A stretch of DNA of 64,000 nt from Burkholderia pyrrocinia (GTDB taxonomy: Bacteria; Pseudomonadota; Gammaproteobacteria; Burkholderiales; Burkholderiaceae): contig NZ_CP011503.1 of the NCBI RefSeq assembly GCF_001028665.1, positions 2,046,001 to 2,110,000 of the forward strand. Direction: 5' to 3'. Under the pieces are notes generated by a model. It was not told the origin of the DNA. It made no database searches and saw only the letters and a program-made list of their open reading frames with translations. The position numbers were made by a program, and so were the translations under genes. Below, one piece after another: positions 457-29,086 of this stretch. Numbering within the stretch: the first letter of the stretch is position 1; each line of letters begins with the position of its first letter.

Positions 457-567
457 GAAGAATCGATCTGTCAATGAATGAGGGCGCGAACCGAATCCAG
501 ACGCGGAAGCGCGGAAAGCTGGATTGTCGATCAAGTTGTGCGTACGGCCCGTTTCATTTCAGAGTGA

Positions 568-596: not shown

Positions 597-655
597 ATTG
601 CATCTTCGAACGTGCGACAATTTCCGCCTTCGCCAAATTCTGGGCCCGACGATAC

Positions 656-12461: not shown

Positions 12462-13252
12462 TCGGGTTCCACTCTCATGCTTGCATCGCGCACGAAATAG
12501 AGACCGATCAGCAAAAGGATCATGTCGCTGAAGACCATATACGGGATGCTGTAATGCGGCTTGACGAGCGAGCCGAAGTAGCCGCCCCGGAGCATTTCCG
12601 TGCCGTGCACCATCGGCAGTAGCAAAATGACTTTCTGAAATTTCTCTGGCAGCCACGACACCATGAAAATCGAACCGGACAGCGGGAACATAAGATAGGC
12701 GACGGTGTGCCAGATGCGGTCCACCGCTTCGCTGCGCTCGGACAGTGCGCCGATGATGAGCGCGAGCCCGGTACCAAATACTGCCAAGTGAAGCCATGCG
12801 CCGATGATCATCGTCAGGTCCTCGGGCGGCTTCATCATGCCTGCGGCGATGAAGAGGACGGAGAGAAACGTAAACGACATCGTGGCGCCCGATATTTCCA
12901 GCAGGAGGCGGGCGAAGAAAAAATCGACGACGCGCACGTTGCGGTGATAGAGCAGCGCCTGATTCGGAAGGATCGCAAGTGCGCAGCGATTCGCGCAATT
13001 GCGCCACAGCAGAACGGGAGAGTAGCCGGTGATCGCGAATGCCGTTATCGGCAATGTCGAGCCGTGCGTTGCCTTCGTGAGCGTCCACAGCATGAGCACG
13101 CCCACCGTAAACATCATCGGCTCGAAAAAGATCCACAGAAAGCCGATGTTGTGCCGGCCGAATCGCGTCAGTATTTCTCGCATCAGCAGAGCGCTCACAA
13201 TGCGCGTCTGAATTGTGAGCGAGCGAGATAGCGGAGTATCGTGATGTGCCAT
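12458..13252 (-). CDS. wzm2: Capsule ABC transporter permease (KpsM family)
   Basis: A 264-residue inner-membrane permease of the ABC-2 capsule export family. The N-terminus [21 protein letters not shown] is the conserved KpsM/BexB/CtrC opening. About six hydrophobic segments follow, including [28 protein letters not shown] and [17 protein letters not shown], and the C-terminus has the amphipathic [15 protein letters not shown]. It lies between the KpsE homologue upstream (12 bases) and kpsT (ATGA overlap). Together they form the export channel feeding the WcbC-like outer-membrane protein. Confidence 0.93.
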
Positions 13253-13264
13253 TGCCGCTAGCTA

Positions 13265-14539
13265 TCAGTCGTGGTGCTCACGCACACCCGCGAGCAGCAG
13301 GCTCAGGATGCCCCAGGCGATCATGCCGAGCGCGAAAACCTCGAAGATCGACTTCAGCCGTTTCGGCTCGATCGCGACGTCCGGCGTATTCGGCTGAACG
13401 AGACGCTCCAGGTAGAGTTGCTGGCGTTGTGCCTCGGCGCGTGCAGTTTCCATGGCCGCCATTGCGGATGCGAGCTGCTTGTCTGCAAACTGAGCATCGA
13501 GTTGCAGGCGCGTATAGCTCGCTGTCTTGTTCGACAGTGAGTTCCTGCTCCCTGCTACGCCACCCGTCGCTTCCTTGATCTGTTGTTCGGTCTCGCTGAT
13601 GCTGTTTTTGAGGACGGCGACCTGCGGATTTTGCGGAGCGATCGACTGCAGTTGCCGCAATTGGGTCTGGGCGGCAAACAACTGGGTCTGCAGGCTCGTA
13701 ATCTGCTGCAACTGGAGCGCAGATTGCTTTTCGGGATCGAAGACCGAGTTCGAGTTTCTGTACGCGGCGAGCGCGACCGCGGCATCCTTCGCCTTGGCGA
13801 CGGCTGCGTCGACCTGACGCTGTGCAAATTGCACGGTATCCGTAGCTGCGCGTTCGTTCATCCGGTTGACAAGCCGTTCGCTTAGCGTCAGAAGCTGAGA
13901 ACTGATCCTGTGTGCGTCCTCGGCCGTGTAGGCGCGCACCTGCAGAGTCGTGATGGACGAAGCGGAGTCGAAATTGACTGACACGATGCGCTTGCCGTAA
14001 TACTTCCACAGCGATTCGAAGCTACCGTCGAGCGTCGCATTGAAGCGACTGAAAAAGTCACCCTGCTTCGAGTATGCGTCGAGGACGTAGTTTTGGCGGT
14101 TGAGCTCGGTGAGTGCATCCCGTGACTGGATGTAATCGATGACGGGATACGCGTCATCTTGTCCGCGCCCGAGACCAGTGCCCTCCAATAGGGCGCCAAC
14201 CATACCGGTTTGTGCGGCCCGCTGCGCGCTACGAACCACGAAGCGCGACTCGGACACGTAGACGTCTGAAGCGATGAGGCCGTAATAAAGGGTCGCGATG
14301 AGCGTAGGTGCGGCCACTGTCACGACAAAAAGGCGGTTGAGCCTTTTCAGGCGTCCAAACAGGTTCGCTTTCGGTGTTCCGGACGTAGAGATTGAGGCGC
14401 TGCCAGATACGTTTTCCAACTTCCATCCATCCAGGCTGATTAGCTCTGCACATACTGTCAAAAGGGATATTCTCTCCTTTCGACTAAAGAGCGGATTCAA
14501 TTTAATGACACGGTCACGAAGCGGTGGTAGCGGGGGCAT
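13265..14539 (-). CDS. wcbD: Capsule export inner-membrane polysaccharide co-polymerase (KpsE/CtrB/BexC)
   Basis: Periplasmic adaptor of the capsule exporter with the classic two-membrane-segment layout. A transmembrane helix ([21 protein letters not shown]) lies near residue 70. A long periplasmic coiled coil rich in Gln and Ala spans about 200-380, and a C-terminal helix ([18 protein letters not shown]) ends in a short cytoplasmic tail. [15 protein letters not shown] after the first helix is diagnostic of the family. The 424-residue reading from ATG 14539 has an unusual Pro-rich start. A shorter start within the next 50 codons is possible, since AGGAG lies about 75 bases further in. It should bridge KpsMT and the outer-membrane lipoprotein. 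Confidence 0.9.
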
Positions 14540-14882
14540 TGCTGGCCCTTTCGATCACCTGTCGCACCGTCTGGACGCAGGCGGACGACGTCCGGCCAGC
14601 TGTAGCATTTCTACCGGACGACGAAGCGCGGCGGCCAAGGAGCGGGGCGGCTGATTATAGCGAGCGAGGGGGGATTGTGCTATCTCTGGTCTCGTCGCGT
14701 TACATTTGCGCAAATACGGCGGCGCGGCTCGGCGGAACCAATTTTTCTTTTCGGGTGAGAGGTGTTATATTCACCGGCTCCTAGAAAGACGAGCGGTCAA
14801 GCCGCCAGCTGGAAAATTTAATAGCTAAAAGGGCCGATAGAGTCTTTCTTCGGTCGGGTCAATTCGCCGGTTGGTATTTTCG
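14540..14882. promoter_or_regulatory. Divergent intergenic region driving the kpsEMT and wcbO-T blocks
   Basis: 343 bases without a convincing gene between the leftward kpsE and rightward kpsS homologues. It is A/T-rich compared with its flanks from about 14690 onward. TATATT at 14766-14771 is a fair -10 hexamer for the rightward operon, but no good -35 lies 17 bases before it. GGTGA and TCACC flank it as a short inverted repeat. Both halves of the locus must be transcribed from here, so it is the likely control point. Confidence 0.4.
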
Positions 14883-16088
14883 ATGCCTCGCTCATTTCTT
14901 GTGCTGCAAGGCACGGCTTCGTCGTTTTTCAGTCGGCTCGCGGATGCCTTGATCGAGCGGGGGCACGTGGTACATCGCGTTAATTTCTGTGGCGGCGACT
15001 GGTTCTACGGCAGGACACGCAATCCGCTCAACTACGTCGGACGGGTTTCCGAGCTTCATGCTTGGTATGGCGACTTCGTTCGCCGGGAGGGTGTCACCGA
15101 TGTTCTGATGTTCGGTGACTGCCGCGAAGTTCACCGGCACATGCATTCTGTCGCCGAGCACTTCGGTCTGCGCGTACACGTGTTCGAAGAGGGCTACGTC
15201 CGCCCGCACTGGATTACGCTTGAAAGCTACGGCGTGAACGGCCGCTCGCGAATGCCGGTGGATCCGCTGGAATACATGAAGTTGCGCAAGGTCATCCCGG
15301 CCGCCGAACCCGGAATGCCAACCGGTTACAACCTGTACGAGCGGGTGTTTCACGACATCACGTATCGGGTCGCCAACGCGCTGCTCGCGTGGCGTTTTCC
15401 GTTCTATCGCAGTCACCGGCCGAAGAACGGCGTGTTCGAGTACACGGGGCTCGCGGTTCGAGCCTCGCTGCAAGGCAAGCACCGGCGGGAGGCAGAAGTA
15501 GTTACGCGCGAGCTGCTGGCGAGCGGCCGGCACTTTTACCTGTTTCCGCTTCAGCTCAACTCCGATGCGCAGATCGTCGTGCATTCGCCTTTCGGCGGTG
15601 TGCGGGAAGCGATTGATTACGTGGTGCGCTCGTTTGCCCGGCACGCGCCACAGGACGCGACGCTGCTGATCAAGAATCACCCACTCGACACCGGCATGAT
15701 TGAATATCATCGCTTCGCGATGTCGATCGCGCGCGAGGCTGGTATCGGTGATCGCGTCCGCTTCATCAACTCGGGCCACTTGCCTACGCTGCTCGAACAT
15801 GCGCGCGGCGTGGTTGTGGTGAACAGCACGGTCGGGTTGTCGGCGTTGCACCATGAGCGCCCGCTAGTTGCACTCGGGACCGCTATTTATAATATGCCCG
15901 GCTTGACCTGGCAGGGAAAACTCGACGATTTTTGGCACGGTGACGAGCTGCCGGACATGCACCTCTATCACGCCTTCCTGGACTACGTGATGCATCACAC
16001 GCAAATCAACGGCGATTTCTACACCCGAACCGGTATCGAGATGGCGGTCGCGGGTGCGGTCGAGCGCCTGGATCGCGCGGATGCCTGA
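14883..16088 (+). CDS. wcbO: KpsS-like capsule polysaccharide lipid-linker (Kdo) transferase
   Basis: A 401-residue member of the Capsule_synth (KpsS/LipB) family, retaining beta-Kdo transferases that build the poly-Kdo linker on phosphatidylglycerol in E. coli. Visible family marks are FEEGYVRPHWITLE (about 105-118), FPLQLNSDAQIVVHSPF (about 222-238), LLIKNHPLD (about 262) and VVVVNSTVGLSALHHERPL (about 315). ATG 14883 is preferred to an in-frame TTG at 14871. It overlaps the SDR gene by eight bases. Its presence says the capsule is attached to a lipid through a Kdo-like linker. Whether the acceptor lipid here is phosphatidylglycerol or the product of the downstream PKS module is open. Confidence 0.88.
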   Translation: MPRSFLVLQGTASSFFSRLADALIERGHVVHRVNFCGGDWFYGRTRNPLNYVGRVSELHAWYGDFVRREGVTDVLMFGDCREVHRHMHSVAEHFGLRVHVFEEGYVRPHWITLESYGVNGRSRMPVDPLEYMKLRKVIPAAEPGMPTGYNLYERVFHDITYRVANALLAWRFPFYRSHRPKNGVFEYTGLAVRASLQGKHRREAEVVTRELLASGRHFYLFPLQLNSDAQIVVHSPFGGVREAIDYVVRSFARHAPQDATLLIKNHPLDTGMIEYHRFAMSIAREAGIGDRVRFINSGHLPTLLEHARGVVVVNSTVGLSALHHERPLVALGTAIYNMPGLTWQGKLDDFWHGDELPDMHLYHAFLDYVMHHTQINGDFYTRTGIEMAVAGAVERLDRADA

Positions 16089-16872
16089 TCAACTGCCGCG
16101 GTGCATCGTCATTACCGGCGCCAGTGCCGGTCTCGGCCGCGCGCTCGCGCTCGGCTATGCCCGACCGGGCACGACGCTCGGCATTGTCGGTCGCAATACC
16201 GCCGAAGTTGATATAACGGCGGCGGCCTGCCGTGCGCGGGGCGCCATGGTCGACACGGGCACGATCGACGTGCGCGACGCCGAGTCGACTGCCGCATGGC
16301 TGGCCGATTTCGACACCCGTCACCCGATCGACCTGCTGATCGCGAACGCTGGCGTGGCCAGCACGATCGCCGACGCGAGCGACTGGGAAGACCTTGAGCG
16401 CACGGCTCGCGTCATCGACACGAATCTCTACGGTGCATTGCATACGGTCCTGCCGGTCGTCGACCGGATGCGTGAGCGCAGGCGCGGCCGAATCGCGATG
16501 GTCAGTTCGATCGCGGCGCTGCGGGGCATGGCGATTTCCCCGGCCTATTGCGCGAGCAAGGCCGCGATCAAGGCCTATGGTGATTCCGTGCGGCCGCTGC
16601 TGGCGCGCGACGGTGTAGGTGTGACCGTCATTCTGCCCGGCTTCGTGAAGACGGCGATGAGTGACGTGTTTCCCGGCGACAAGCCGTTCCTCTGGAGTGC
16701 CGAGCGCTCGGCCGCATACATTCGCCGGCGGCTCGATGCGGGACGAAACGAGATCGCATTTCCCGGATTGCTCGCGTTTGGCATGCGCCTCCTGCCGCTT
16801 CTGCCCGCCGCGGTTGCCGACGCGATCCTCGACCGTCTGTCTTATCTGCCGTCGAAGGATCGGGTCAATTGA
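16081..16872 (+). CDS. wcbP: Short-chain dehydrogenase/reductase
   Basis: Classical SDR of 263 residues with the cofactor motif TGASAGLGRALALGY, NAGVAS, the catalytic Ser in VSSIAALRG and the YCASK Tyr-Lys pair. It overlaps the kpsS homologue by eight bases and the next gene by four (TTGA), so it belongs to one translational unit with wcbQ. In sphingolipid and fumonisin-type pathways an SDR reduces the 3-keto group made by an alpha-oxoamine synthase. Since such a synthase lies downstream (27.0 kb), that role is a reasonable but untested proposal. Confidence 0.87.
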   Translation: MPDQLPRCIVITGASAGLGRALALGYARPGTTLGIVGRNTAEVDITAAACRARGAMVDTGTIDVRDAESTAAWLADFDTRHPIDLLIANAGVASTIADASDWEDLERTARVIDTNLYGALHTVLPVVDRMRERRRGRIAMVSSIAALRGMAISPAYCASKAAIKAYGDSVRPLLARDGVGVTVILPGFVKTAMSDVFPGDKPFLWSAERSAAYIRRRLDAGRNEIAFPGLLAFGMRLLPLLPAAVADAILDRLSYLPSKDRVN

Positions 16873-18401
16873 GTGCGCGTCTTGTCGTGACGCTGGCCGC
16901 CACCGTTGTGCTGTCGTTCGCGGTCGATGCGGTCGCTGTCCCGCGCGCGCCGCTGAGGCGGCCAATGCTGTCGTCAGTGCTTCACATTCTTTCCGTACTC
17001 TTCTTGTTCGACTTGATGTTCGCCGTCACGTCGCGGCCGCTATTTTCGGCCTGCGCGTCGCTCGCGCTCGTCGGCCTTGTCGCCGCCGTCAGCAATGCGA
17101 AGTACGAGTCGCTGCGCGAGCCGTTCGTATTTACCGATCTGAGCCTTTTCAGCCAGTTGTTTTCGCATCCTCGTCTATACCTGCCGTTCCTGAGCGTCGG
17201 CAAGGTTGTTGCGATCGGCGCGGGCATCGTGTTCGTGATCGCGGGTTTCATCGTCGAGCAGCTCGTGTTTCCAGGCTCCCGCGCGTTGGCTTGGCTCGTG
17301 GCGGCGCTGCCGTTCGCGCTTGCCTTTCCCGTCGCCGCGCGCTTGCCTCTCACGCTCGATCCGTACGTCGACCAGTGTCGCCACGGTTTTTTTGCCGTGT
17401 TCGTTGCTTATCTGCTCAACGGCCTGCGTCCTGCGACGTTCCGGCGGTTTCGCGAGGCTGTGGCGGCCGGGCCGTTCGCAACCGGTGAACCGACGCGGCA
17501 CCCTGACGTAATCCTGATCCAGAGCGAATCGTTCTTCGACGCGCGCCGGCTTGGCGAGGCAGTCGCGCCGGAACTCTTCAGGCGCTTCGACGACGCGCGT
17601 CGCGAGGCTGTCTGGCATGGTGAGATGACGGTGCCTGCCTGGGGCGCAAACACCATGCGCACGGAATTCGCGGTGTTGACCGGCACGGAATCCTTTTCGC
17701 TCGGGTATGCGCGTTTCTATCCCTATGCATTTGTAAGAAATAAAATCGCGTCACTCGCGTCCTGGCTCGGTCGTTGCGGCTACGACACAGTCGCGATTCA
17801 TCCCTATTACGCCGATTTCTTCGGACGCGACCGGGTATTTCCGTTGCTCGGCTTTACGCGCTTTCTCGATATCCGTCACTTTGCGTCGGCGCGCCGTGCG
17901 GGGCCTTACGTGGCGGATACCGCGGTCGCCGAGGCGATCATTGCAGAACTTGAGGCGGCGGGTGGCGACCGCCCGCGCTTCGTGTTTGCAATGACGATGG
18001 AAAACCACGGCCCGCTGCACCTCGAGCAGGTTTTGCCCGGCGAATCGTCTTCACGGCATACTCTTGGCGAGGACGCATCCTGGCGTGATCTGACTGCATA
18101 TCTGCGGCACATTGAAAATGCGGACGCAATGATCGGGCGCTTGCTCGATCATTTGCGCACCAGCGATCGTGAAACGGTCGTTTGTTTCTACGGCGACCAC
18201 GTTCCCGCTCTGTCTCATGTTTTTCATAAACTGGACGTTAATCCGCAACACAGCGACTACTTCATTTGGCGGAATTACGGCGCAGTTGCTCCCGAATGCC
18301 GGAACTTGGCCGCCGAGGAGTTAGGGTCGGCACTGCTGCATGTGGTACAAGATCACGGAAATCGCGCGGAAGAACCGCACGCATCCGAGAAAGCGACATA
18401 A
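16869..18401 (+). CDS. wcbQ: LtaS/MdoB-like membrane phosphoglycerol transferase (alkaline phosphatase superfamily)
   Basis: A 510-residue polytopic membrane enzyme starting at TTG 16869, overlapping the previous stop. Residues 1-190 contain about five hydrophobic helices. The rest is a periplasmic sulfatase-fold domain with the metal-site elements VILIQSESFFD (metal-binding Glu), GANTMRTEFAVLTG (Thr nucleophile), TMENHGP and YGDHVPA. These match lipoteichoic acid synthase and OpgB-type enzymes, which transfer phosphoglycerol from phosphatidylglycerol; a phosphoethanolamine transferase or sulfatase is the alternative. Inside a capsule-lipid operon it may decorate the lipid or glycan with a polar head group outside the inner membrane. 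Confidence 0.82.
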   Translation: MSARLVVTLAATVVLSFAVDAVAVPRAPLRRPMLSSVLHILSVLFLFDLMFAVTSRPLFSACASLALVGLVAAVSNAKYESLREPFVFTDLSLFSQLFSHPRLYLPFLSVGKVVAIGAGIVFVIAGFIVEQLVFPGSRALAWLVAALPFALAFPVAARLPLTLDPYVDQCRHGFFAVFVAYLLNGLRPATFRRFREAVAAGPFATGEPTRHPDVILIQSESFFDARRLGEAVAPELFRRFDDARREAVWHGEMTVPAWGANTMRTEFAVLTGTESFSLGYARFYPYAFVRNKIASLASWLGRCGYDTVAIHPYYADFFGRDRVFPLLGFTRFLDIRHFASARRAGPYVADTAVAEAIIAELEAAGGDRPRFVFAMTMENHGPLHLEQVLPGESSSRHTLGEDASWRDLTAYLRHIENADAMIGRLLDHLRTSDRETVVCFYGDHVPALSHVFHKLDVNPQHSDYFIWRNYGAVAPECRNLAAEELGSALLHVVQDHGNRAEEPHASEKAT

Positions 18402-18404
18402 AAG

Positions 18405-21400
18405 ATGAACAGTAAGATTGCAATAATTGGGATCGCTTGTCGGTTTCCCGGGAGCGCAAACAATCTGGGCGACTTCTGGCAACTGCTGCGCGACGAACGC
18501 GACGCAGTGACCGAAATCCCCGCCGACCGCTTCGGCACCGACTTCTACCAGCACCCGTCCAAACGCGAACCGGGCAAGAGCTACACGTTCTCGGCCGGCG
18601 TCGTCGACAACGTCGCCGGCTTCGACGCCGCGTTCTTCGGCATTTCCCCGCGCGAAGCGGCCCAGATGGACCCCCAGCAGCGCCTGCTGCTCGAACTCGC
18701 GTGGGAAGCGTTCGAGGATGCGGGCGTGCGCCCGGCCGACATGCGCGGCGGCAACTGCGGCGTCTTCGTCGGTGCCGCCAGCATGGACTACGGCAACCGC
18801 AACATGGACGATCTGAACGTGATCGATCCGTATTCGGCGACCGGCAACACGCTGAGCATCGCGTCGAACCGCGTGTCCTACCTGTTCGACCTGCACGGCC
18901 CGAGCATGTCCGTCGACACGGCCTGCTCGTCGTCGCTCGTCGCACTCCATCAGGCCGTCAAGGCACTGCAGTCCGGCGAAGCCGACATGGCGCTCGCCGG
19001 CGGCGTCAACCTGCTGCTGCACCCGTTCGGCTTCGTCAGCTTCTCCAAGGCGTCAATGCTGTCGCCGCGCGGCCGTTGCCGTGCGTTCGACGCGACCGGC
19101 GACGGTTACGTCCGCTCGGAAGGCGGCGCGTTCGTGCTGCTCAAGCCGCTCGAGCGCGCGCTTGCCGACGGCGACACGATCCATGCGGTCATCGCCGGCT
19201 CCGGCGTGAACTCGGTCGGCTACTCGCCGGGCGGCATCAGCGTGCCGGGCGCGGCCGCGCAAGCGTCGCTGCTGCGCAGCGTCTACGCGCGCGCGGGCAT
19301 CGATCCGCAGTCGCTGGCGTACCTCGAGGCGCACGGCACCGGCACGGCAGTCGGCGATCCGATCGAAGCGCGCGCGCTGATCGACGTGGTGTCGGGCGGG
19401 CGCCCGGCGGACCGTCCGCTGCTCATCGGTTCGGTGAAGACCAACATCGGCCATCTCGAGACGGCGTCCGGCATGGCCGGCCTGCTGAAGGCCGTGCTGT
19501 GCCTGAAGCATCGCGCGGTGCCGCGCTCGCTGCATTTCGTCACGCCGAATCCGGGCATCGATTTCGACGGTGGGCGTCTGCGCGTCGTCGATCGCTACAT
19601 GCCGCTCGACGCGGGCGACGCGCCGCTGACGGTCGGCGTCAACTCGTTCGGCTTCGGCGGAACGAACGCACACGTCGTGCTGACCGAAGCGCCGGTGTCG
19701 GTAGCGGTTGCGGAGGCAACGTCGACGACTGCGGTGGAATCGGCTGGCGTGCCGTCTCCGCTCGTGCTGACTGCGCGCAGCGCGAACGCGCTCGGCGCGC
19801 TCGCGAGCCGCTATCTCGCGGTGCTCGATAACGGCGGCGACTGGCAGGCGCTTGCCGCCGCGGCCGCACGTCGCCGCCAATGGCTCGAGCAACGCGCGGT
19901 CGTCGCGCCGGCCGATGCGGCGGAAGGTCGCGCGGCGCTCGCGGCGCTGGCGCAGCCGGCGCAGGAAGGGCTGCCGGCGTGCGTGGCGACTGGCCAGGCA
20001 CCCGCCGACGCGTTGCGCACCGCGCTCGTTTTCTCGGGCAACGGTTGCCAGTGGGTCGGGATGGGCAACGAGCTCTATGCCGAGAATGCGGTCTTCCGTG
20101 CGGCGCTCGACGAAGTCGATGCGCTGTGGTGCGCCGACGGCAGCCCGTCGCTCGTCGACGTGATGCGCGGCGGCCCGGGCGCGGAATGGCTGGCCGGCGC
20201 GGGCGCCGAATGGCTTGCCGCGACGGAAAACGCGCAGCCGCTGCTGTTCGCGATCCAGGTCGGCATGATCCGCGTGATCGACGCGCGCGGCATGCGCTAC
20301 GACGCGGCGATCGGCCATAGCGTCGGCGAGATCGCCGCGGCGTGGGTGACGGGCGCGTTGTCGCTCGCCGACGCGGTTCGCGTGATCAAGATTCGCAGCC
20401 GCGCGCAGGCGATGACGCGCGGCAGCGGCCGGATGGCGGCGGTCGGCATCGGCGAGGCGGCGGCACGCGAACTGATCGCGCGCCATGGGCTCGCGCGACG
20501 CGTCGAGATCGCCGGCATCAACAGCCCCGATGCGGTGACGCTCGCGGGCGAGCTGCAGGGATTGCAGGCGCTGGAAGCTGCGCTGCGCGGCAGCGGCAAG
20601 TTCTTCCAGATGCTGGATCTCGACTATGCGTTCCACAGCAGCCACATGGACCGCATCGAGCCGGTCGTGCTGGCCGAACTGGCCAGCCTGCGGCCGCAAC
20701 CGGGGAACGGCACTTTCGTGTCGACGGTGACTGGCGGCGCCTTCGCCGGCAGCGAGCTCGATGCGCGCTACTGGTGGCGCAATATCCGCGAGCCCGTGCG
20801 CTTCGGCGACGGCATCGCGCATCTGATCGAGCAGGGCGTCCGGCTGTTCGTCGAGGTTTCGCCGCATTCGATCCTGCGCACGTACGTGAAGCAGGCGTTC
20901 GCCGCGGCCGGCGCAACTGGCGTGGTGCTGCCGACGCTCAAGCGCGATCACGGCAGCGCGGCGACGCTGCGGCAGGCGATTCTCGCGGCGATCGCACATG
21001 GCGCGAACGTCGATCCCGACCGCTTCGCACCGGGCACGCCGCGAGCGGCATTGCCGTCCTATCCGTGGCAGCGCGACCGCTTTTGGCTGACGCCGACCGT
21101 CGAAGGCTACGGCCTCGTCAATCGCCGCCGCGAGCATCCGCTGCTCGGCTATCGCCTGCACGAACACGCATTCGCGTGGGAAAACCAGCTCGATCCGGCG
21201 AAGCTGCCGATGCTGGCCGATCACGTCGTCGATGGCGGCGTGGCGTTCCCGGGTGCCGGATACGTGGAAATGGCGCTCGCCGCGGCGCGCACCTTCTTCG
21301 ATACGCCGGATGCGGCGCTCGAAAACGTCGAGATTCGCACGCCGGTCGTCTTCCAGCCGCAGCAGGCGAAGCTGTTCCGGCTCGTGATCGAGCCGCGCAC

Positions 21401-24400
21401 CGCGACCTTCACGATCGAGACGCGCGACCGGATGTCCGAAGGCGCATGGACGCTGAACGTGACGGGCCGGATGCTGGAAAGCGGCACCGCGCTCGGCGCC
21501 GCGAGCGTCGTGCCGTCCGACACGCTCGATCGCCTGCTCGCGCTGCCGGCTGCCGACGGCGATACGCTGTACGCGAACACGGCGGCCATCGGCCTCGGCT
21601 ACGGGCCGGCGTTCCGCTGGGTCCGCACCGTGCGGGTCGCCGCGGACGACGACGCGGCGCTGGCTGACATCGCCGCGCCTGCCGCATGCGGGGACGCACG
21701 GGCGCTGTCCGCGTATCTGCTGCATCCGGCGCTGATGGACAGCGGGTTTCATCCGCTGTTCGCGTTGCTTGCCGCGCACGCACGGGACGGCGAGCATCCG
21801 GCTTACGTGCCGGTGCAGATCGGCCGGGTCGACTATCTGCGCGGCGACACGGTCGAACGCGTGCTCGCACGAGTCGACCGGCGCAGCCCGCATTCGATCG
21901 TCGCGCATTTCGAATTCCTCGATGCGCAGGGCGCGATCGTCGCACGGCTCGGCGCTTGCCGGTTCCGGCGCGTCGATCTCGTCGGCCGCCGGCAGAACCT
22001 GCCCGCGCGCTTCGTCTACCGCCTCGAAGAGGTACCGCTGCCGAACGAAGTCGACGCAGCCGGTTTGCCAGCGCCCGACGCGTTGCTCGCACAGGCGGTC
22101 GCGCGGCTCGATGGCGCCGAAGACGACGGCCGCCGTACGCAACATCTGACCGAAATTCTGCCGCTGCTCGACGTGCTGGCGAGCCTCTACGTGCTGCGGG
22201 CATTCGATGCGCTCGGCGCATTCGACGGCACCTGGCAGCCGCAGCCGGAGCGTGCGGCGCTGGCGGCACGTCTTGCCGACATGCTCGTCGAGGACGGTCT
22301 TGCCCATCGAGACGGCGCTGGTCTCGTACGCGACGATGCCGCGTGCGCGGCGTTGCCTCCGCTCGACGAGCTGTGGCGGGGGCTGCTGGCCGAATCGCCG
22401 GGGCACGTGGCCGAGCTGACGCTGCTCGCGCATTGCGGCGCGGCGTTGCCCGACGTGCTGAACGGTGCGAAGGAGGGCGCACGTTTGCTGTCGCCGACCG
22501 GGCACAGCCTGGTCGAGCAACTTCTTGCCGCATCGCCGACGTGGCAGCACGTGCACGCGCTGCAGACGGCGAGCGTCGAGCAGGCGGTCGATGCGTGGCG
22601 CCCGGCGCGCCGGTTGCGCGTGCTCGAACTGGGCGCGACGGACGGCGACGTGCTGCAAACGCTCGGCCTGCATCTCGCGGCCGCGCGCTGCGATCACACG
22701 ATCGCCGCGACGGCGGGGCAACTGGCCGGGTTCGACGCGGATGCGGAATCGGCCGTGCGCACGGTTGCGCTGCAGCCGGGCGAGCGGCTGTCGCTGTCGG
22801 CCGACGAAGCCGGGCCTTACGACCTGATCGTCGCGAATCGGGCCTTGAGCGGCCGTCGCGATGTGGCCGATGCGCTGAACGCGATCCGGTCGTGGCTGGC
22901 GCCGGGCGGATTGCTGCTGCTGGCCGAGTCGCGCCGCGGCCGTTTCTCCGACATCGTGTTCGGCCCGCAGGCGTCGTCGACGGAAGCCGACGCGCCCGTG
23001 CAGCTGGCGCCGGCGGATCTGGATGCGGCGCTCGACCGCGCCGGCTACGTCGACATCGTGCGGCATGTCGAGCAGTCGCTCGATCTGGACGGCACACCGA
23101 CGTTCGTGATTGCGCGCAACCCCGCGAGCGCCGTTGCCGCGCAACGCGGCGACGGCCAGAGCGATCTCGATACGCTTGCACGCACCGAACAATGGCTCGT
23201 GGTGCACGCGCCGGATGCCGCCGGCAGTTTCGGCGGGCGGCTGGCCGATGCGCTGGCGCAAGCGGGTTTTCCGGCCGATATCGTGGACATCGCGCACGCG
23301 GCCGATGCGATCGCGTCGTTGCCGGCCGGGCAGCCGGCCCATGTCGTGTTCTGCGCGCCGGAAACGCCGCTGGCCGAAACGGCGACGGGCGATAGCCTGA
23401 TGGCCGCGCAGCGCAACGGCGCGATCGCGCTGGCGGCACTGGTCCGCGAGCTCGGCGCGCAGCCGAACGCGGCCACGCGGCTGACCATCGTCACGCGTGG
23501 CGGCGCGCCATTCGCCGGGGCCGCGAATGCGCATCCGGAACAGGCGACGCTGTGGGGCCTCGGGCGCGTGCTGGCGAACGAGCATCCCGAACTCGCGTCC
23601 CGCCTGATCGACGTCGATCGAGCGGCGGACCGGATTCCCGACGCGCTGATTCGCGAGCTGACCGGCGCGGCGGTCGAGGAAGAAGTGATCCTGACCGCAC
23701 ACGGGCGGCTGGTGCCGCGCATGCTGACGGCCGCGCAGGCCGCGGCCCGCAACGATGGCGCGATCGCGCGTGCGGCCGTGCTCGCGTTCGACGCGCCGGG
23801 TTCGTTGCGCAATCTCGAATGGTTTGCGTTACCCGAACGCGCGCTGGGCGCGGACGAGGTGGAAATCGAGCCCGTTGCTACCGGCCTCAATTTCCGCGAC
23901 GTGATGTATGCGATGGGGCTGCTGTCCGATGAAGCGGTCGAGACCGGCTTCGCGGGCGCGACGATCGGCATGGAATTGTCCGGCCGCGTCACCCGGGTGG
24001 GCGCCAGCGTGACGGCATTCGCGCCGGGCGACGCCGTCCTCGGGTTCGCGCCGGCCTCGTTCGCGACACGTGTCCGGACGCGCGCGCAAGCCATCGCGCA
24101 GAAACCCGAGCGCCTGTCGTTCGAGGAAGCGGCGACGGTGCCGACCACGTTCTTCACCGCGTATTACGCGCTCGTCGAACTCGCGCGGCTGCGCCGCGGC
24201 GAGCGCGTGCTCGTGCACGGCGGCGCGGGCGGCGTCGGGATCGCGGCGATCCAGCTCGCGCGCCACTTCGGCGCGGAAGTGTTCGCGACGGCCGGCAGCG
24301 ACGAGAAGCGCGAGTTCGTGCGCCTGCTCGGCGCCGACCACGTGCTCGATTCGCGCAGCCTTGCGTTCGCGGACGAGATTCGCGCGATGACAGGTGGCCA

Positions 24401-26045
24401 GGGCATCGACATCGTGCTGAATTCGCTCGCCGGCGAGGCGATGGTGCGCAGCATCGATACGCTGCGTCCGTTCGGTCGTTTCCTCGAGCTCGGCAAGCGC
24501 GATTTCTACGAAAACAGCCATATCGGGCTCAGGCCGTTCCGCAACAACATCAGCTATTTCGGCATCGATGCCGACCAGTTGATGGGCGCGCTGCCGGAGC
24601 TGACGGCACGCCTGTTCGGCGAAGTGATGGCGTTGTTCGCGTCTGCGTCGCTGCATCCGCTGCCGTATCGCGCGTTCCCCGCCGAACGGGCCGAGGATGC
24701 GTTCCGCTACATGCAGCAGGCGCGCCAGATCGGCAAGGTGCTCGTGACCTATCCGTCCGGCACGCCGGCGCCGACGCGCGGCGTCACCGGCGCGGGTTCG
24801 CTCGCGCTCGATCCGCATGGCGCGTACCTGGTGGTCGGCGGCACGGGCGGGCTCGGTTTCGCGAGTGCGCGCTGGATGGTCGAGCGCGGCGCACGCCGGC
24901 TGACGCTGGCGAGCCGTTCCGGCGAACTCGCGGCCGCGGCGCGCGACGAAGTCGAGCGCTGGCATGCAACGCTTGGTGTGGCGGTCGACGTCGTCTCGTG
25001 CGATGTGACCGACGCCGTGGCGGTCGATGCGATGATCGCCGCGATCGTCCGGCGCGATGTTCCGCTGAAGGGCGTACTGCATTCGGCGATGTCGATCGAC
25101 GACGGCCTCGTGCGCAATCTCGACGACGCGCGCATGGCCGCGGTGCTCGCCCCGAAGGTGGCCGGCGCGTGGAACCTGCATCGCGCGACGCGGGCGCTGC
25201 CGCTCGATCTGTTCGTGGTCTATTCGTCGGCGACGACCTATCTCGGCAATCCGGGGCAGTCGAATTACGTCGCGGCCAACAGTTTCCTCGAGGCGCTCGT
25301 CGAACATCGCCGCGCGGCAGGCTTGCCCGGCACGTTCATGGCCTGGGGGCCGCTCGAGGACGTCGGCTTCCTCGCACGCCATGCGGATACGCGCGAAGCG
25401 TTGCAGTCGCGGATCGGCGGTGCGTCGATCACGTCCGACGAGGCGATGGTTGCGCTCGAGCGGGCGCTGGTCGCGGGCGCGGCCGGCGAAGCCGTGGTCC
25501 GGCTCGACTGGCACGCCGTGGCGCGCGGGATGCCGGCCGCGAAGGCGCGCCGGTATTCGCTGCTGCAATCGCATGCGGCGGGCGGCGATGCGCGCGACGG
25601 CGGCACGCAACTGCGGGAAGAGGTGCTCGCGTTGCCGCGCGACGAAGCTGTCGCGCTCGTTGCCGGGACGCTGCAGGCGCAGATCGCGCGCATCCTGCAC
25701 ATGACGCCCGATCGCATCGCGCTCGACAAGTCGGTGCTCGACATGGGCATGGATTCGCTGATGGGGATGGAGCTTGGCCTCGCGGTCGAGGAAGCGTTCG
25801 AGGTCAAGCTGTCGGTGATGGCGATCGCCGAGGGCGCGTCCGTGACGACGCTGGCCGGACGCATCGTCGATTCGATCGGCGCGTCGGCCGATGCCGATGC
25901 CGGCTCGGCAACCGATGCGGCACAAGAGGCGGTCGCGGCGCTCGCGGCGAAGCATGCGATCGAAGGCGAAGCGCGCGCGATGCTCGACAGCCGGCCGGCG
26001 CCCGTTGCGGGCGATGCAGCGTCGACGCTGGAAGTCGCCCGATGA
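18405..26045 (+). CDS. wcbR: Type I highly reducing polyketide synthase, KS-AT-DH-psiMT-ER-KR-ACP
   Basis: Single-module iterative-looking PKS of 2546 residues. KS (1-430): Cys174 in DTACSSS and His310 in EAHGTG. AT (about 540-860): GHSVGE, and YAFHSSHMD suggesting malonyl-CoA. DH (about 905-1190): HVVDGGVAFP with His940, and HPALMDSGFH. Residues about 1370-1570 resemble a C-methyltransferase, but motif I reads ELGATDGD, so it is probably inactive. ER (about 1790-2110): HGGAGGVGIAAIQLA. KR (about 2135-2330): GGTGGLG and QSNYVAAN. ACP: DMGMDSL with Ser2451. There is no thioesterase. All reductive steps are present, so the predicted product is a saturated long acyl chain on the ACP, released by a separate enzyme, plausibly the alpha-oxoamine synthase downstream. 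Confidence 0.93.
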   Translation: MNSKIAIIGIACRFPGSANNLGDFWQLLRDERDAVTEIPADRFGTDFYQHPSKREPGKSYTFSAGVVDNVAGFDAAFFGISPREAAQMDPQQRLLLELAWEAFEDAGVRPADMRGGNCGVFVGAASMDYGNRNMDDLNVIDPYSATGNTLSIASNRVSYLFDLHGPSMSVDTACSSSLVALHQAVKALQSGEADMALAGGVNLLLHPFGFVSFSKASMLSPRGRCRAFDATGDGYVRSEGGAFVLLKPLERALADGDTIHAVIAGSGVNSVGYSPGGISVPGAAAQASLLRSVYARAGIDPQSLAYLEAHGTGTAVGDPIEARALIDVVSGGRPADRPLLIGSVKTNIGHLETASGMAGLLKAVLCLKHRAVPRSLHFVTPNPGIDFDGGRLRVVDRYMPLDAGDAPLTVGVNSFGFGGTNAHVVLTEAPVSVAVAEATSTTAVESAGVPSPLVLTARSANALGALASRYLAVLDNGGDWQALAAAAARRRQWLEQRAVVAPADAAEGRAALAALAQPAQEGLPACVATGQAPADALRTALVFSGNGCQWVGMGNELYAENAVFRAALDEVDALWCADGSPSLVDVMRGGPGAEWLAGAGAEWLAATENAQPLLFAIQVGMIRVIDARGMRYDAAIGHSVGEIAAAWVTGALSLADAVRVIKIRSRAQAMTRGSGRMAAVGIGEAAARELIARHGLARRVEIAGINSPDAVTLAGELQGLQALEAALRGSGKFFQMLDLDYAFHSSHMDRIEPVVLAELASLRPQPGNGTFVSTVTGGAFAGSELDARYWWRNIREPVRFGDGIAHLIEQGVRLFVEVSPHSILRTYVKQAFAAAGATGVVLPTLKRDHGSAATLRQAILAAIAHGANVDPDRFAPGTPRAALPSYPWQRDRFWLTPTVEGYGLVNRRREHPLLGYRLHEHAFAWENQLDPAKLPMLADHVVDGGVAFPGAGYVEMALAAARTFFDTPDAALENVEIRTPVVFQPQQAKLFRLVIEPRTATFTIETRDRMSEGAWTLNVTGRMLESGTALGAASVVPSDTLDRLLALPAADGDTLYANTAAIGLGYGPAFRWVRTVRVAADDDAALADIAAPAACGDARALSAYLLHPALMDSGFHPLFALLAAHARDGEHPAYVPVQIGRVDYLRGDTVERVLARVDRRSPHSIVAHFEFLDAQGAIVARLGACRFRRVDLVGRRQNLPARFVYRLEEVPLPNEVDAAGLPAPDALLAQAVARLDGAEDDGRRTQHLTEILPLLDVLASLYVLRAFDALGAFDGTWQPQPERAALAARLADMLVEDGLAHRDGAGLVRDDAACAALPPLDELWRGLLAESPGHVAELTLLAHCGAALPDVLNGAKEGARLLSPTGHSLVEQLLAASPTWQHVHALQTASVEQAVDAWRPARRLRVLELGATDGDVLQTLGLHLAAARCDHTIAATAGQLAGFDADAESAVRTVALQPGERLSLSADEAGPYDLIVANRALSGRRDVADALNAIRSWLAPGGLLLLAESRRGRFSDIVFGPQASSTEADAPVQLAPADLDAALDRAGYVDIVRHVEQSLDLDGTPTFVIARNPASAVAAQRGDGQSDLDTLARTEQWLVVHAPDAAGSFGGRLADALAQAGFPADIVDIAHAADAIASLPAGQPAHVVFCAPETPLAETATGDSLMAAQRNGAIALAALVRELGAQPNAATRLTIVTRGGAPFAGAANAHPEQATLWGLGRVLANEHPELASRLIDVDRAADRIPDALIRELTGAAVEEEVILTAHGRLVPRMLTAAQAAARNDGAIARAAVLAFDAPGSLRNLEWFALPERALGADEVEIEPVATGLNFRDVMYAMGLLSDEAVETGFAGATIGMELSGRVTRVGASVTAFAPGDAVLGFAPASFATRVRTRAQAIAQKPERLSFEEAATVPTTFFTAYYALVELARLRRGERVLVHGGAGGVGIAAIQLARHFGAEVFATAGSDEKREFVRLLGADHVLDSRSLAFADEIRAMTGGQGIDIVLNSLAGEAMVRSIDTLRPFGRFLELGKRDFYENSHIGLRPFRNNISYFGIDADQLMGALPELTARLFGEVMALFASASLHPLPYRAFPAERAEDAFRYMQQARQIGKVLVTYPSGTPAPTRGVTGAGSLALDPHGAYLVVGGTGGLGFASARWMVERGARRLTLASRSGELAAAARDEVERWHATLGVAVDVVSCDVTDAVAVDAMIAAIVRRDVPLKGVLHSAMSIDDGLVRNLDDARMAAVLAPKVAGAWNLHRATRALPLDLFVVYSSATTYLGNPGQSNYVAANSFLEALVEHRRAAGLPGTFMAWGPLEDVGFLARHADTREALQSRIGGASITSDEAMVALERALVAGAAGEAVVRLDWHAVARGMPAAKARRYSLLQSHAAGGDARDGGTQLREEVLALPRDEAVALVAGTLQAQIARILHMTPDRIALDKSVLDMGMDSLMGMELGLAVEEAFEVKLSVMAIAEGASVTTLAGRIVDSIGASADADAGSATDAAQEAVAALAAKHAIEGEARAMLDSRPAPVAGDAASTLEVAR

Positions 26046-26959
26046 GCGCGCCGACCGGCTGGGCAACGCGCCAGGGTACGCTGGCACGCACGCTGACGAT
26101 CGACGGTCACGGGTTGCACACGGGGCGCCGGGTGGGCGTGCGGATCCTGCCTGCGCGTCCGGAAGACGGCGTGACGGGCATCGTGTTCCGTCGCGTCGAG
26201 CAAGGGCGCACGCTCGCGACGCTGCCGGTCGACCCCGCGCTGCGCCGCGCACAGCCGCTCTGCACGATGCTGCGCAATGCCGACGGCGTCGGCGTTCGCA
26301 CGATCGAACATCTGCTTGCCGCGCTGCTCGCGTGCGAGATCGATCACGCGATCGTCGAGCTCGATGCGGAGGAAGTGCCGATTCTCGACGGCAGCGCAAC
26401 GCCGTGGGTGGACGCGATCCGCGCATGCGGCCGCGTGGCGCTCGATGCGCCGAAGCGCTTCATCCGCGTGCTGCGGCCCGTCGTCGTCACGGACGGCGAC
26501 GGCGACCAGCGGCGCGAAATGCGGATCGAGCCGGCGCCGCGCTACGAGCTGAGCGTGCGCAACGACCTGCGCGGCTTCGGCGACATGCACTGGGACGGTG
26601 CGCTGACGCCAGCCGCATTCGCGACCGAAATCGCGCCGTCGCGCTCGTACGGGCGCGTGAAGTGGGCGGTGCCCGCGATCGTCGCCGGGTATCTGCGCGG
26701 CGTGCCGATCCTGCGCGGCGCGCGGCCGTCGTGCACCGCGTCCATCGTCGGCAATCGCGTGCTGGGCGGGATGCGGCTGCCGGAGGAGTTCGTCCGGCAT
26801 CGCGTGCTCGACCTGGTCGGCGATCTCGCGCTGGCCGGCGCGCCGCTGCTGGCGCGCGTGAGTGCGTTGCGGCCGAGCCACGAGATGAATTTCAGGCTGG
26901 TCGATGCGTTGCTGGCCGACACCGACGCCTGGCAGTGGGCCGAGTTTTCCGACGCGTGA
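26042..26959 (+). CDS. wcbS: LpxC-family N-acyl deacetylase paralogue
   Basis: A 305-residue homologue of UDP-3-O-acyl-GlcNAc deacetylase. The zinc ligands and active-site residues are visible: TIEHLLAAL (Glu89, His90), EFVRHRVLDLVGD (His253, Asp257) and PSHEMNF (His280). The Lys next to the second His in classic LpxC is Arg here. The family opening GVGVHSGK-like segment is replaced by DGHGLHTGRRVGV. ATG 26042 overlaps the PKS stop (ATGA), linking it to the polyketide pathway. Burkholderia normally keep the essential lpxC in the cell-division cluster, so this copy is probably specialised to deacylate an amino-sugar or amino-lipid intermediate. Confidence 0.87.
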   Translation: MSAPTGWATRQGTLARTLTIDGHGLHTGRRVGVRILPARPEDGVTGIVFRRVEQGRTLATLPVDPALRRAQPLCTMLRNADGVGVRTIEHLLAALLACEIDHAIVELDAEEVPILDGSATPWVDAIRACGRVALDAPKRFIRVLRPVVVTDGDGDQRREMRIEPAPRYELSVRNDLRGFGDMHWDGALTPAAFATEIAPSRSYGRVKWAVPAIVAGYLRGVPILRGARPSCTASIVGNRVLGGMRLPEEFVRHRVLDLVGDLALAGAPLLARVSALRPSHEMNFRLVDALLADTDAWQWAEFSDA

Positions 26960-27023
26960 CACCACGCCTTTTAAAAATTCGCGGCGTAACATAGCGCCTT
27001 TTCGAGATAAAGCGAAGGAAGCA

Positions 27024-28343
27024 ATGGCACTGGGAGAGCATCTTCGCCAGCAACTGGCGGCGAAAGCGCTGAAACGGCAACTGGAACGCGCGACCGATGC
27101 CGCCGCGGCGCCCGGCGTGCCCGGCACGCCGGCTGCGCAGACCGCATCGGCGCGCAGCCGCTTCGAATCGATGCCGCAGTATCAGCAGGTCCGGATCATG
27201 CGCGAGATGGGCGAGAAGCTGCGCGTCGACTCGCCGTTCTTCCGCGTGCATGACGGTGTGGCCGGCGCGACGACGCAGATCGGCGGTCGCGAGTACCTGA
27301 ACTTCGCGAACTACAACTACCTTGGGCTCGCCGGCGATCCGGCCGTGTCCGCGCGCGCGAAAGCCGCGATCGACCGCTACGGCACGTCGGCATCCGCGAG
27401 CCGGATGGTCGCGGGCGAGCGCCCGGTGCAGCGCGATCTCGAGCGCGCGCTGGCCGCGTTCTACGAAACCGACGACTGCGTCGCGTTCGTGAGCGGCCAT
27501 GCGACCAACGTGACCGTGATCGGCGCGTTGTTCGGCCCGGGCGATCTGATCGTCCACGACGCGCTCGCGCACAACAGCATCGTGCAGGGCGCGCAACTGA
27601 GCGGTGCGAAGCGGCTGAGCTTCGCGCACAACGACTGGCAGGCACTCGACGAACTGCTTTCGCGCGTGCGCCGCGAGTACCGGCACGTGCTGATCGCGAT
27701 CGAAGGGCTGTACAGCATGGACGGCGATTTCCCCGACCTGCAGCGCTTCGTCGACGTGAAGACGCGCCATGGCGCATTCCTGCTGGTCGACGAGGCGCAT
27801 TCGCTCGGCGTGCTCGGCGCGACCGGCAAGGGCATCCGCGAGCATTGCGGCGTCGCGCCCGACCAGGTCGACATGTGGATGGGCACGATGAGCAAGACGC
27901 TGGCCGGCTGCGGCGGCTTCATCGCCGGCTGCCAGCCGCTCGTCGACATGCTGCGCCATCTGGCGCCGGGCTTCCTGTACAGCGTCGGGCTCGCGCCGAC
28001 GCTCGCCGAAGCGTCGCTGGCCGCGCTCGAGCGCCTGCAGGCCGAGCCGGAGCGCGTCGCGCAGTTGCAGGCGCGCGGGCGGCAGTTCCTGACCGAGGCG
28101 CGGGCCGCCGGGCTGAATACGGGCACGAGTGCCGGGTATGCGGTCGTGCCGGTGATTACCGGCAGCTCGCTGAAGGCCGCGCAGTGGGCGAATGCGATGT
28201 TCGACGAAGGGATCAACGTGCAGCCGATCTTCTATCCGGCCGTCGAGGAAAAGGCCGCGCGCCTGCGCTTCTTCATCTGCTCGACGCACGAGCCGGAGCA
28301 GATCGAGCAAACGATCGCGACGCTCGCTCGTCTCGCACGTTGA
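27024..28343 (+). CDS. wcbT: Alpha-oxoamine synthase (PLP-dependent, KBL/BioF/SPT family)
   Basis: A 439-residue fold-type I PLP enzyme. It shows FANYNYLGLAGDP, YGTSASASRMVAGERPVQRDLE, the cofactor-binding DEAHSLGVLG and the Schiff-base Lys291 in GTMSKTLAGCGGF. Family members condense an amino acid with an acyl thioester, releasing CO2 and giving an aminoketone (serine palmitoyltransferase, 2-amino-3-ketobutyrate ligase, 7-keto-8-aminopelargonate synthase). About 60 extra N-terminal residues precede the core and may dock to a carrier protein. It follows the TE-less PKS, so off-loading of the polyketide chain to an aminoketone is the likely job. A GAAGGAAG-type ribosome site precedes ATG 27024; the upstream frame is not used. 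Confidence 0.9.
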   Translation: MALGEHLRQQLAAKALKRQLERATDAAAAPGVPGTPAAQTASARSRFESMPQYQQVRIMREMGEKLRVDSPFFRVHDGVAGATTQIGGREYLNFANYNYLGLAGDPAVSARAKAAIDRYGTSASASRMVAGERPVQRDLERALAAFYETDDCVAFVSGHATNVTVIGALFGPGDLIVHDALAHNSIVQGAQLSGAKRLSFAHNDWQALDELLSRVRREYRHVLIAIEGLYSMDGDFPDLQRFVDVKTRHGAFLLVDEAHSLGVLGATGKGIREHCGVAPDQVDMWMGTMSKTLAGCGGFIAGCQPLVDMLRHLAPGFLYSVGLAPTLAEASLAALERLQAEPERVAQLQARGRQFLTEARAAGLNTGTSAGYAVVPVITGSSLKAAQWANAMFDEGINVQPIFYPAVEEKAARLRFFICSTHEPEQIEQTIATLARLAR

Positions 28344-28351
28344 GTGCATCG

Positions 28352-29086
28352 ATGACGGATCGAGTGAGCGACAGACTTGGGCAGGTGAGAAAGGCAGTAG
28401 CATCTGGCGTGTTGCGCCGCCGCGCGGCTGATGCGGCGGATGCCCATACATGCGCGCCGCTCATACTCGCGTCGGGTACACGTGAGTTTGCGTTCTTCCT
28501 CGGTGTGTCGCCTGGTCAATGCATTGCGTTTCTTGCATTCGCATTTGCATCGAAGCATGGGCGTTTCTCTTGGAGACGCCATCGAGTGGCGGTGTCCGAG
28601 GACGGCATCGTGCGCGCGGTTCTTGCCGTGCACGACGGAAGGAGGACGATGTGGGACGATGTACACGTCGCCTGGATGTTGATCAACTTTTTCGGCTTCG
28701 TATGCGCCGTCCGGATGCTGTTGCGTGGACTGATTCTAGAAGGCGAACTGCCCGCCCCGACACGCGAGCAAACGCTGATTGCGCATTGCGCTGTTGACGA
28801 GGCGTGGCGTGGCCGGGGCGTCTTTAGCGCACTGTTTGACGATGCAATGCGAGCGGGTGGGTTACGCCAAGGGCCGGTGCGAGAAATCGTGCTCGACGTG
28901 CTGGCAAGCAATGTCCGCGCTCGCGCTCTGTACGAGCGTCTCGGTTTCACCGAGATGCCGAAGTCCCGGCGCCGATCGGCTCGCCTTCCTCAGGAACTGA
29001 TATCGACACGGATGCGATTCGATGCCACGGAGCGCGAGGTGTCCTTGGATAGTTCCCGCATTGAGCCGACACTCGACGGGCGGTGA
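28352..29086 (+). CDS. GNAT-family N-acyltransferase
   Basis: A 244-residue protein whose C-terminal half carries the acetyl-CoA fold: LIAHCAVDEAWRGRGVFSALFDD (motif A with the Q/RxxGxG/A-like loop) and LDVLASNVRARALYERLGF (motif B). The centre has a hydrophobic stretch (WMLINFFGFVCAVRMLLRGLIL) that could associate with the membrane. It starts eight bases after wcbT and is the last rightward gene of the block. Its G+C is a little lower than the PKS. It could acylate the amino group exposed by the oxoamine synthase or the LpxC-like enzyme; this is inference from context. Confidence 0.75.
   Translation: MTDRVSDRLGQVRKAVASGVLRRRAADAADAHTCAPLILASGTREFAFFLGVSPGQCIAFLAFAFASKHGRFSWRRHRVAVSEDGIVRAVLAVHDGRRTMWDDVHVAWMLINFFGFVCAVRMLLRGLILEGELPAPTREQTLIAHCAVDEAWRGRGVFSALFDDAMRAGGLRQGPVREIVLDVLASNVRARALYERLGFTEMPKSRRRSARLPQELISTRMRFDATEREVSLDSSRIEPTLDGR

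Follow-up and report, generated by a model that had tools for sequence, protein, structure and literature searches.

A gene block beside KpsS in Burkholderia pyrrocinia may build a sphingoid lipid anchor for a Kdo-linked capsule

Results

Gene content of the locus

The stretch of DNA analyzed here, called the window, covers 64,000 nucleotides of the Burkholderia pyrrocinia genome (7.96 Mb in four contigs; C1:2046001-2110000, C1 being contig NZ_CP011503.1). It contains a capsule locus in which genes for the transfer of 3-deoxy-D-manno-oct-2-ulosonic acid (Kdo) and for polysaccharide export lie beside genes of a predicted sphingoid-lipid pathway. The lipid genes and the adjoining KpsS-type gene form a rightward run of seven genes on the plus strand (14871-29086), overlapping or separated by short gaps:

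14871..16088, plus strand: KpsS-type beta-Kdo transferase (WcbO/RkpJ-like; PF05159, 348 bits; TTG start at 14871, ATG at 14883)
16081..16872, plus strand: short-chain dehydrogenase/reductase (SDR; WcbP/RkpH-like), predicted 3-keto-sphinganine reductase (PF00106, 133 bits; YxxxK motif)
16869..18401, plus strand: LtaS-like membrane enzyme (WcbQ/RkpI-like), predicted to transfer phosphoglycerol to a sphingoid base (PF00884)
18405..26045, plus strand: reducing polyketide synthase (PKS) without thioesterase (WcbR/RkpA/SgaA-like), predicted to be iterative and to make a saturated long chain (Pfam domains, motifs)
26042..26959, plus strand: LpxC paralogue (WcbS), possible lipid N-deacylase, lineage-specific (PF03331, 229.5 bits; NCBIfam PRK13187, 629 bits)
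27024..28343, plus strand: alpha-oxoamine synthase (AOS; WcbT/RkpG/SgaB-like), predicted to condense serine with, and so release, the ACP-bound chain (PF00155, 162 bits)
28352..29086, plus strand: GNAT acyltransferase, possible amine capping (PF00583, 35 bits; ATG start, alternative TTG start at 28340)

Neighboring genes overlap by 8 nt (KpsS/SDR), 4 nt (SDR/LtaS-like) and 4 nt (PKS/LpxC), and the remaining gaps measure 3 nt (LtaS-like/PKS), 64 nt (LpxC/AOS) and 8 nt (AOS/GNAT). An earlier note on this DNA had described a compact block at this place, next to a KpsS-type gene, and the Pfam matches and spacings bear that description out. The other capsule genes are these:

524..1837, plus strand: KpsD-type polysaccharide export protein (PF02563 and SLBB domains)
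11808..12464, minus strand: KpsT-type ABC ATPase (PF00005, 67 bits)
12458..13252, minus strand: KpsM-type ABC permease (PF01061, 31.7 bits)
13265..14539, minus strand: KpsE-type inner-membrane export protein (TIGR01010, 347 bits, cut-off 437.5)
C1:2043532-2044932, just outside the window: KpsC

Together, KpsS, KpsC, KpsM, KpsT, KpsE and KpsD form the gene set of an ABC-dependent, Kdo-linked (group 2 type) capsule, in which KpsS (NCBIfam KpsS, 266 bits, cut-off 600) and KpsE score under their curated cut-offs. KpsC and the KpsM/T/E/D-type genes had not entered the argument of the earlier note.

Predicted sphingoid-base genes

The PKS (2546 residues) displays the Pfam domain order KS-AT-DH-MT-like-ER-KR-ACP, with the KS, AT, DH, ER, KR and ACP motifs all present, and none of the 17 Pfam families listed for it is a thioesterase. 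Its AT carries an AFH-type motif, which we take to be malonyl-type. The methyltransferase-like motif looks atypical, which makes this a putative activity. The AOS retains the lysine motif TMSK together with DEAHSLG.

The window thus pairs a mono-modular, thioesterase-less reducing PKS with an AOS, here with the LpxC paralogue between them. A pair of the same type is known from Pseudomonas fluorescens MYb115, where SgaA (PKS) and SgaB (AOS) give rise to C24-C28 sphinganines, and where SgaB condenses serine with acyl-CoA, favoring L-serine in vitro almost exclusively over alanine and glycine (Peters et al. 2025, PMC12134224). This precedent supports the earlier note's reading of PKS, AOS and SDR as a sphingoid-base line. 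Phosphoglycerol sphingolipids have also been assigned in P. fluorescens, by mass, and homologous PKS-AOS clusters are said to be dominantly from Burkholderia; the role of the SDR as ketone reductase is itself a proposal there (PMC12134224). In the available text of that paper the head-group enzyme is not named, the strings capsul, Kdo, LTA and lipoteichoic each occur 0 times, and the Sga cluster, which resembles the present block in its iterative PKS, AOS and SDR, is handled as a secondary-metabolite cluster and is not linked to a capsule. The fumonisin and sphingofungin pathways (PMC12134224 in part) share the logic of an AOS that releases a PKS chain and an SDR that reduces the ketone; they are fungal, and we liken them by logic alone.

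Among 79 named loci that carry a related AOS, 16, all titled Burkholderia, have one that is 95-99% identical to the AOS of the window; identity to the AOS of B. pseudomallei is 90%. Identity to the counterpart on a Pseudomonas plasmid is 58% for the AOS and 42% for the SDR, and to the Sinorhizobium meliloti counterparts 49% and 32%, respectively. Against the NCBIfam equivalog models for serine palmitoyltransferase (SPT), the AOS scores 290, 283 and 229 bits, under the curated cut-offs of 500, 640 and 670; it may work like an SPT but does not belong to these curated families. A tblastn search for viral relatives of the AOS found none, and matches to the PKS on Streptomyces plasmids were discarded since they covered only 1-2% of the query.

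The LtaS-like enzyme

Profile and fold comparisons place the LtaS-like protein closest to phosphoglycerol transferases, with GacH as its nearest solved relative. It shares the fold of GacH, LtaP and LtaS, and its metal-site and nucleophile residues (E, T, D and H) align with those of this type; these are Gram-positive enzymes, whereas the acceptor predicted here is a sphingoid base. We rejected EptA-type phosphoethanolamine transfer, since EptA and MCR-1 ranked below GacH, LtaP and LtaS in the fold search (which alone does not exclude it) and no EptA-named chain is among the eight PDB matches of the profile. Glycerol-phosphate transfer by this enzyme is the likely head-group step; its predicted role as head-group enzyme, overlooked in the earlier note, is new here. 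An apparent KpsC-LtaS fusion in another genome (G028) is actually two genes in different frames.

Co-occurrence with capsule genes

In a set of 398 Pseudomonadota genomes, we counted AOS-type genes at 416 bits or more (17 genomes), LtaS-type genes at 346 bits or more (14 genomes), genes of the KpsS/C class at an E-value of 1e-40 or better (58 genomes) and SPT above its curated cut-off (35 genomes). Genes of the KpsS/C class accompany the AOS in 14 of 17 genomes, against 44 of the 381 others (p = 2e-10), and the LtaS type in 13 of 14, against 45/384. All 14 LtaS-type genomes have an AOS or SPT, compared with 36 of the remaining 384 (p = 4e-14). When only the 58 KpsS/C genomes are considered, the LtaS type occurs in 13 of the 18 with AOS or SPT and in 0/40 of the others. 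As a control, SPT alone is unlinked to the KpsS/C class (6/35 versus 52/363, p = 0.40). Proximity follows the same pairing: the LtaS-type match starts 102-922 bases from a PF05159 match in 13 of the 14 LtaS-type genomes. Two of these genomes, G303 and G327, lack the AOS; their SPTs exceed the curated cut-off (608 bits against 500).

The five AOS/SPT genomes of the KpsS/C set without the LtaS type are G103, G167, G262, G265 and G317, the last of which has an SPT above the curated cut-off and an LtaS-like match of 251 bits. With a looser PF05159 limit (E-value 1e-15, 63 genomes) the AOS overlap is 15/17, the added genome, G324, having only a weak match on another contig. LtaS-like matches in G397, G154 and G213 (259-296 bits) fell under the cut and were set aside; no PF05159 match or AOS of this type is listed for them.

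KpsS phylogeny

We built a KpsS tree from 30 genomes, the best-scoring of the 63 with PF05159 loci. Seventeen of the 18 sequences from AOS/SPT genomes share one branch, which holds none of the 12 others, with support of 89/88 (moderate, and under the strict mark of the tree program). The tree needs 2 label changes, compared with 9.7 when labels are shuffled, and 0 of 500 shuffles were as low. A larger tree of 52 sequences includes 22 added named ones, 16 of them labeled sphingoid-associated; these were mostly picked through AOS or KpsS searches and are hence biased, and the label of the Novosphingobium sequence is assumed from its SDR and hydroxylase. It shows 3 label changes versus 15.1 shuffled, and the KpsS of an E. 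coli plasmid falls in the other branch.

Related loci

The 79 named loci were followed over flanks of at most 10 kb. In 66, the gene immediately upstream of the AOS is a PKS, or LpxC preceded by a PKS; PKS and AOS are fused in one, a contig end cuts another, and 11 lack such a PKS. This neighborhood exceeds chance. As the flanks are so short, KpsS and SDR are usually out of range in the Burkholderia loci. The 39 non-Burkholderia loci include 15 with an LtaS-like gene and 15 with KpsS, and in 11 of them LtaS-like gene, SDR and KpsS stand together (8 Pseudomonas, Thiolinea, Thiothrix and Desulfobulbus).

A close described parallel in gene types is the rkp-1 region of Sinorhizobium (rkpA, G, H, I, J), which has the same five: PKS (40% identity over 1232 aa), AOS, SDR, LtaS-like (profile, 261 bits) and KpsS-like (38%). 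It differs in having no LpxC or GNAT annotated between its genes and in gene order, which in S. meliloti is export gene, PKS, AOS, SDR, LtaS-like, KpsS, while in the window KpsS, SDR and LtaS-like come before the PKS. For the K antigen, the rkp-1 region is credited with the synthesis and modification of "a specific lipid carrier" (PMC4881576), and an exoA rkpH double mutant of S. fredii does not make K-antigen polysaccharide (PMC8227245). Similarly, the wcb operon has been called one for lipid-carrier biosynthesis, "probably fatty acids" (PMC11766843, whose available text has no word starting with sphing). The earlier note held that the joint function of these genes was not established, a view now out of date: the sphinganine half was published in 2025 (PMC12134224), and a lipid-carrier role had been proposed in print for rkp-1 (PMC4881576) and wcb (PMC11766843). 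Among the matches listed in a search of the open-access literature, with subscription journals mostly outside it, no title connects a sphingoid anchor with this capsule locus.

The set also occurs on plasmids. Pseudomonas plasmid pL21564-1 has a run of PKS, AOS, PhyH, KpsC, GNAT, LTA (lipoteichoic acid) synthase family gene, SDR and KpsS, continuing with KpsC, phosphotransferase, KpsF, KdsB and KdsA (Kps names assigned in this analysis). From PKS to SDR it spans 30 locus-tag units, as does MYb115 (RS19805 to RS19775), and we therefore predict that MYb115 holds the same genes. A Paraburkholderia plasmid has the whole window set beside export genes. An Acidisoma plasmid combines a fatty-acid hydroxylase, AOS and SDR with an LTA synthase family gene, export genes and two capsular biosynthesis genes (one of them the KpsS match), and Novosphingobium pLA5 groups KpsS and an LTA synthase family gene with a hydroxylase and an SDR; neither has a PKS in the stretch covered, and their LTA synthase family genes are named by annotation.

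Several loci show variants. One Pseudomonas plasmid with the lipid and Kdo-linker gene set (L174) is typed as mobilizable, so the pathway may travel; in it, a PhyH dioxygenase gene adjoins the AOS (L174:15243-16286) and could encode a sphingoid-base hydroxylase. In L107, we discarded a 361-aa open reading frame (ORF) that follows the AOS, as it probably runs antisense to PhyH. PKS and AOS matches fall within a single ORF, a natural fusion, at L055:9835-17700, L125:1-4200 and L058:2198-8011. In one of the 11 PKS-less loci, from a Thermoguttaceae metagenome-assembled genome, AMP ligase, ACP and AOS are fused in a protein of 1158 aa (L123:7853-11329), and other Planctomycetes and Verrucomicrobia loci have similarly long AOS ORFs without a PKS. 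A Streptomyces plasmid gene annotated as bifunctional SDR/AOS (L176:5052-9089) unites the condensing and reducing steps.

LpxC paralogue and GNAT

The LpxC paralogue keeps the motifs TIEHL, RHRVLD and SHEMN, aligned with solved LpxC, which presumably represent the zinc ligands and catalytic residues. A second LpxC elsewhere in the genome scores higher (365 versus 229 bits). LpxC is present in 40 of the 79 named loci, 39 of which are Burkholderia or Paraburkholderia. GNATs, found in 41/79, fall into two kinds without close relationship: treating those of Burkholderia and Pseudomonas as one family was rejected, as phmmer gives no match between them and BLAST finds only the GNAT motif (E-value 1e-4). 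The model of the window's GNAT (predicted local distance difference test score, 81.2) has acetyltransferases as its nearest folds, several of them acting on small amines. Formyltransferase-like genes lie near the AOS in 8/79 loci, and beside it at L105:11323-12123 (PF00551) and, by phmmer, in L106, L112, L120, L129, L130 and L136, as if the amine were N-formylated there.

It is plausible from these families that LpxC paralogue and GNAT tailor the amine. The earlier note had proposed that the two proteins exchange the N-acyl group. As a core part of the pathway, this is not supported by the lineage-restricted LpxC, the two distinct kinds of GNAT and the formyltransferase-like genes of some lineages; it would be a lineage-specific extra.

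Other features of the window

A large ORF near the capsule genes (31061-33085) weakly matches a sulfotransferase and contains a Wzt_C domain, and a tRNA-Lys (ttt) gene lies on the minus strand at 47693-47769.

Discussion

The reading that we favor, with a probability of roughly 0.6, is that the block makes phosphoglycerol-sphinganine, which would replace lyso-phosphatidylglycerol (lyso-PG) as the lipid acceptor from which KpsS likely begins the Kdo linker of the capsule. We infer its first five steps for this genome. The PKS, whose domains are observed, would build a saturated chain on its ACP, a product suggested by SgaA; the AOS would free the chain by decarboxylative condensation with serine, as shown for SgaB; and the SDR would reduce the ketone. 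The LtaS-like enzyme would then move glycerol phosphate from PG to the 1-hydroxyl of sphinganine, a step predicted from the enzyme's homology, fold and co-occurrence pattern and from the phosphoglycerol sphingolipids reported in P. fluorescens. Finally, the glycerol would receive its first Kdo from KpsS, with KpsC and the export proteins taking over from there, as in E. coli. In this lineage, LpxC paralogue and GNAT may tailor the amine, the weakest step of the scheme. In others, an ordinary SPT or a different AOS appears to replace the first two steps, while the LtaS-like enzyme and KpsS stay.

The E. coli group 2 terminus, in which KpsS and KpsC act on lyso-PG, resembles this scheme in its KpsS/KpsC and KpsM/T/E/D genes and in the logic of its Kdo linker, and differs in its lipid, the KpsS of E. 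coli using (lyso-)PG as the acceptor for Kdo (PMC7694667). The lipid ends described for the Kdo-linked capsules of E. coli, Neisseria meningitidis and Campylobacter jejuni are likewise (lyso-)PG or diacylglycerol phosphate (PMC7694667 in part). That the present block anchors or primes the capsule, as the earlier note had suggested, is supported by the rkp-1 gene set, the co-occurrence of KpsS and LtaS types and the KpsS branch.

Several observations weigh against this reading. The catalytic domains of LtaS-type enzymes are exposed to the periplasm. KpsS acts on the cytoplasmic side (PMC7694667), and the lipid would therefore need flipping back. The phosphoglycerol assignment in P. fluorescens rests on mass (PMC12134224), and the poly-Kdo of S. 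meliloti 1021 has been reported with a "phospholipid anchor" (title of Fraysse 2005; PMC7902896), although phosphoglycerol-sphinganine might have been read as such. In the KpsS trees, G103 is an exception, with an SPT and a KpsS outside the sphingoid branch; two long sequences outside that branch are unsure, its support is moderate, and the larger tree groups two sequences not labeled sphingoid, from G032 and a Cupriavidus, with the sphingoid ones. In the genome counts, the AOS and LtaS bit cut-offs (416 and 346) were placed at gaps after these had been seen, the 17 AOS genomes represent 11 genera, so that same-genus genomes are not independent, and 5 of the 17 lack the LtaS type, none matching even at an E-value of 1e-10. 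The lipid genes also occur without any PF05159 match (G398, G399, G400 and the L175 plasmid), with only the weak one on another contig (G324), or, in G041 (L057), as a PKS-AOS pair adjoining an LtaS-like gene without a PF05159 match at 1e-15. In such genomes without KpsS/C, the lipid may thus serve as a polymer carrier through a different route as well.

Some of these loci are of interest in themselves. G041 could make a capsule-free phosphoglycerol sphingolipid. L074, L077, L068, L175 and G324, from Burkholderia, Paraburkholderia and Caballeronia, combine PKS, LpxC, AOS and LtaS-like genes, with no PF05159 match in the genome searched (for L175, the plasmid) except the weak one of G324, and export genes come after the AOS in L074-L080 and L100; this gene content points to a loading of the same lipid that dispenses with Kdo.

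Three alternatives were weighed. The first, which we consider unlikely, is that the LtaS-like enzyme acts on the capsule polymer, adding glycerol phosphate to it, the anchor being a bare or differently headed sphingoid. GacH, the nearest solved relative, presumably puts glycerol phosphate on a streptococcal polysaccharide, and the active domain of the LtaS-like enzyme would face the periplasm. Polymer decoration is also the role stated for WcbQ (PMC11766843). However, the LtaS type follows AOS or SPT genes in 14/14 genomes and lies less than 1 kb from a KpsS/KpsC-class gene in 13/14, and phosphoglycerol sphingolipids are reported from P. fluorescens (PMC12134224), all of which speaks against this alternative.

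The second, which we find improbable, is that the product of the block is a free sphingolipid, secreted or in the membrane, such as a signal or envelope lipid, and that the block adjoins the capsule genes by chance. The sphingolipids of P. fluorescens affect a nematode host (PMC12134224), and several genomes, G041 among them, have the lipid genes without PF05159 genes. Chance adjacency is hard to square with the 14/17 AOS genomes that have KpsS/C-class genes (44/381 among the others), with a KpsS branch of its own, and with the ties of rkp-1 to K-antigen export and production (PMC4881576, PMC8227245). Lastly, it is very unlikely that the AOS takes glycine or alanine, or that the PKS chain ends as a fatty acyl group, giving a deoxy-amino lipid or ordinary acyl-PG as anchor: the AOS reaches only 290 of the 500 bits of the SPT model, phmmer ranks 2-amino-3-ketobutyrate ligase first for it and WcbR is annotated as a fatty acid synthase (PMC10752968), but SgaB, from the same type of PKS-AOS pair, favors L-serine almost exclusively (PMC12134224), and the LtaS/KpsS pair also goes with true SPTs.

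If the phosphoglycerol-sphinganine reading is taken beyond this genome, an entire branch of the Kdo-linked capsules, with members in Burkholderia, Pseudomonas, Methylobacterium, the rhizobia and other groups, would rest on a phosphoglycerol-sphingoid instead of lyso-PG, with the LtaS-like enzyme forging the mimic, a dedicated KpsS branch reading it and the source of the chain, PKS-AOS or SPT, being interchangeable. We regard this broader proposal as evenly poised. If it is true, the capsules of many plant symbionts and opportunistic pathogens would rest on a sphingolipid that comes partly from a fungal-style polyketide line, and the old rkp-1 "lipid carrier" would be identified. The missing head-group enzyme of the P. 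fluorescens pathway published in 2025 would be named, and the "secondary metabolites" of that species would be predicted to be capsule anchors or their precursors.

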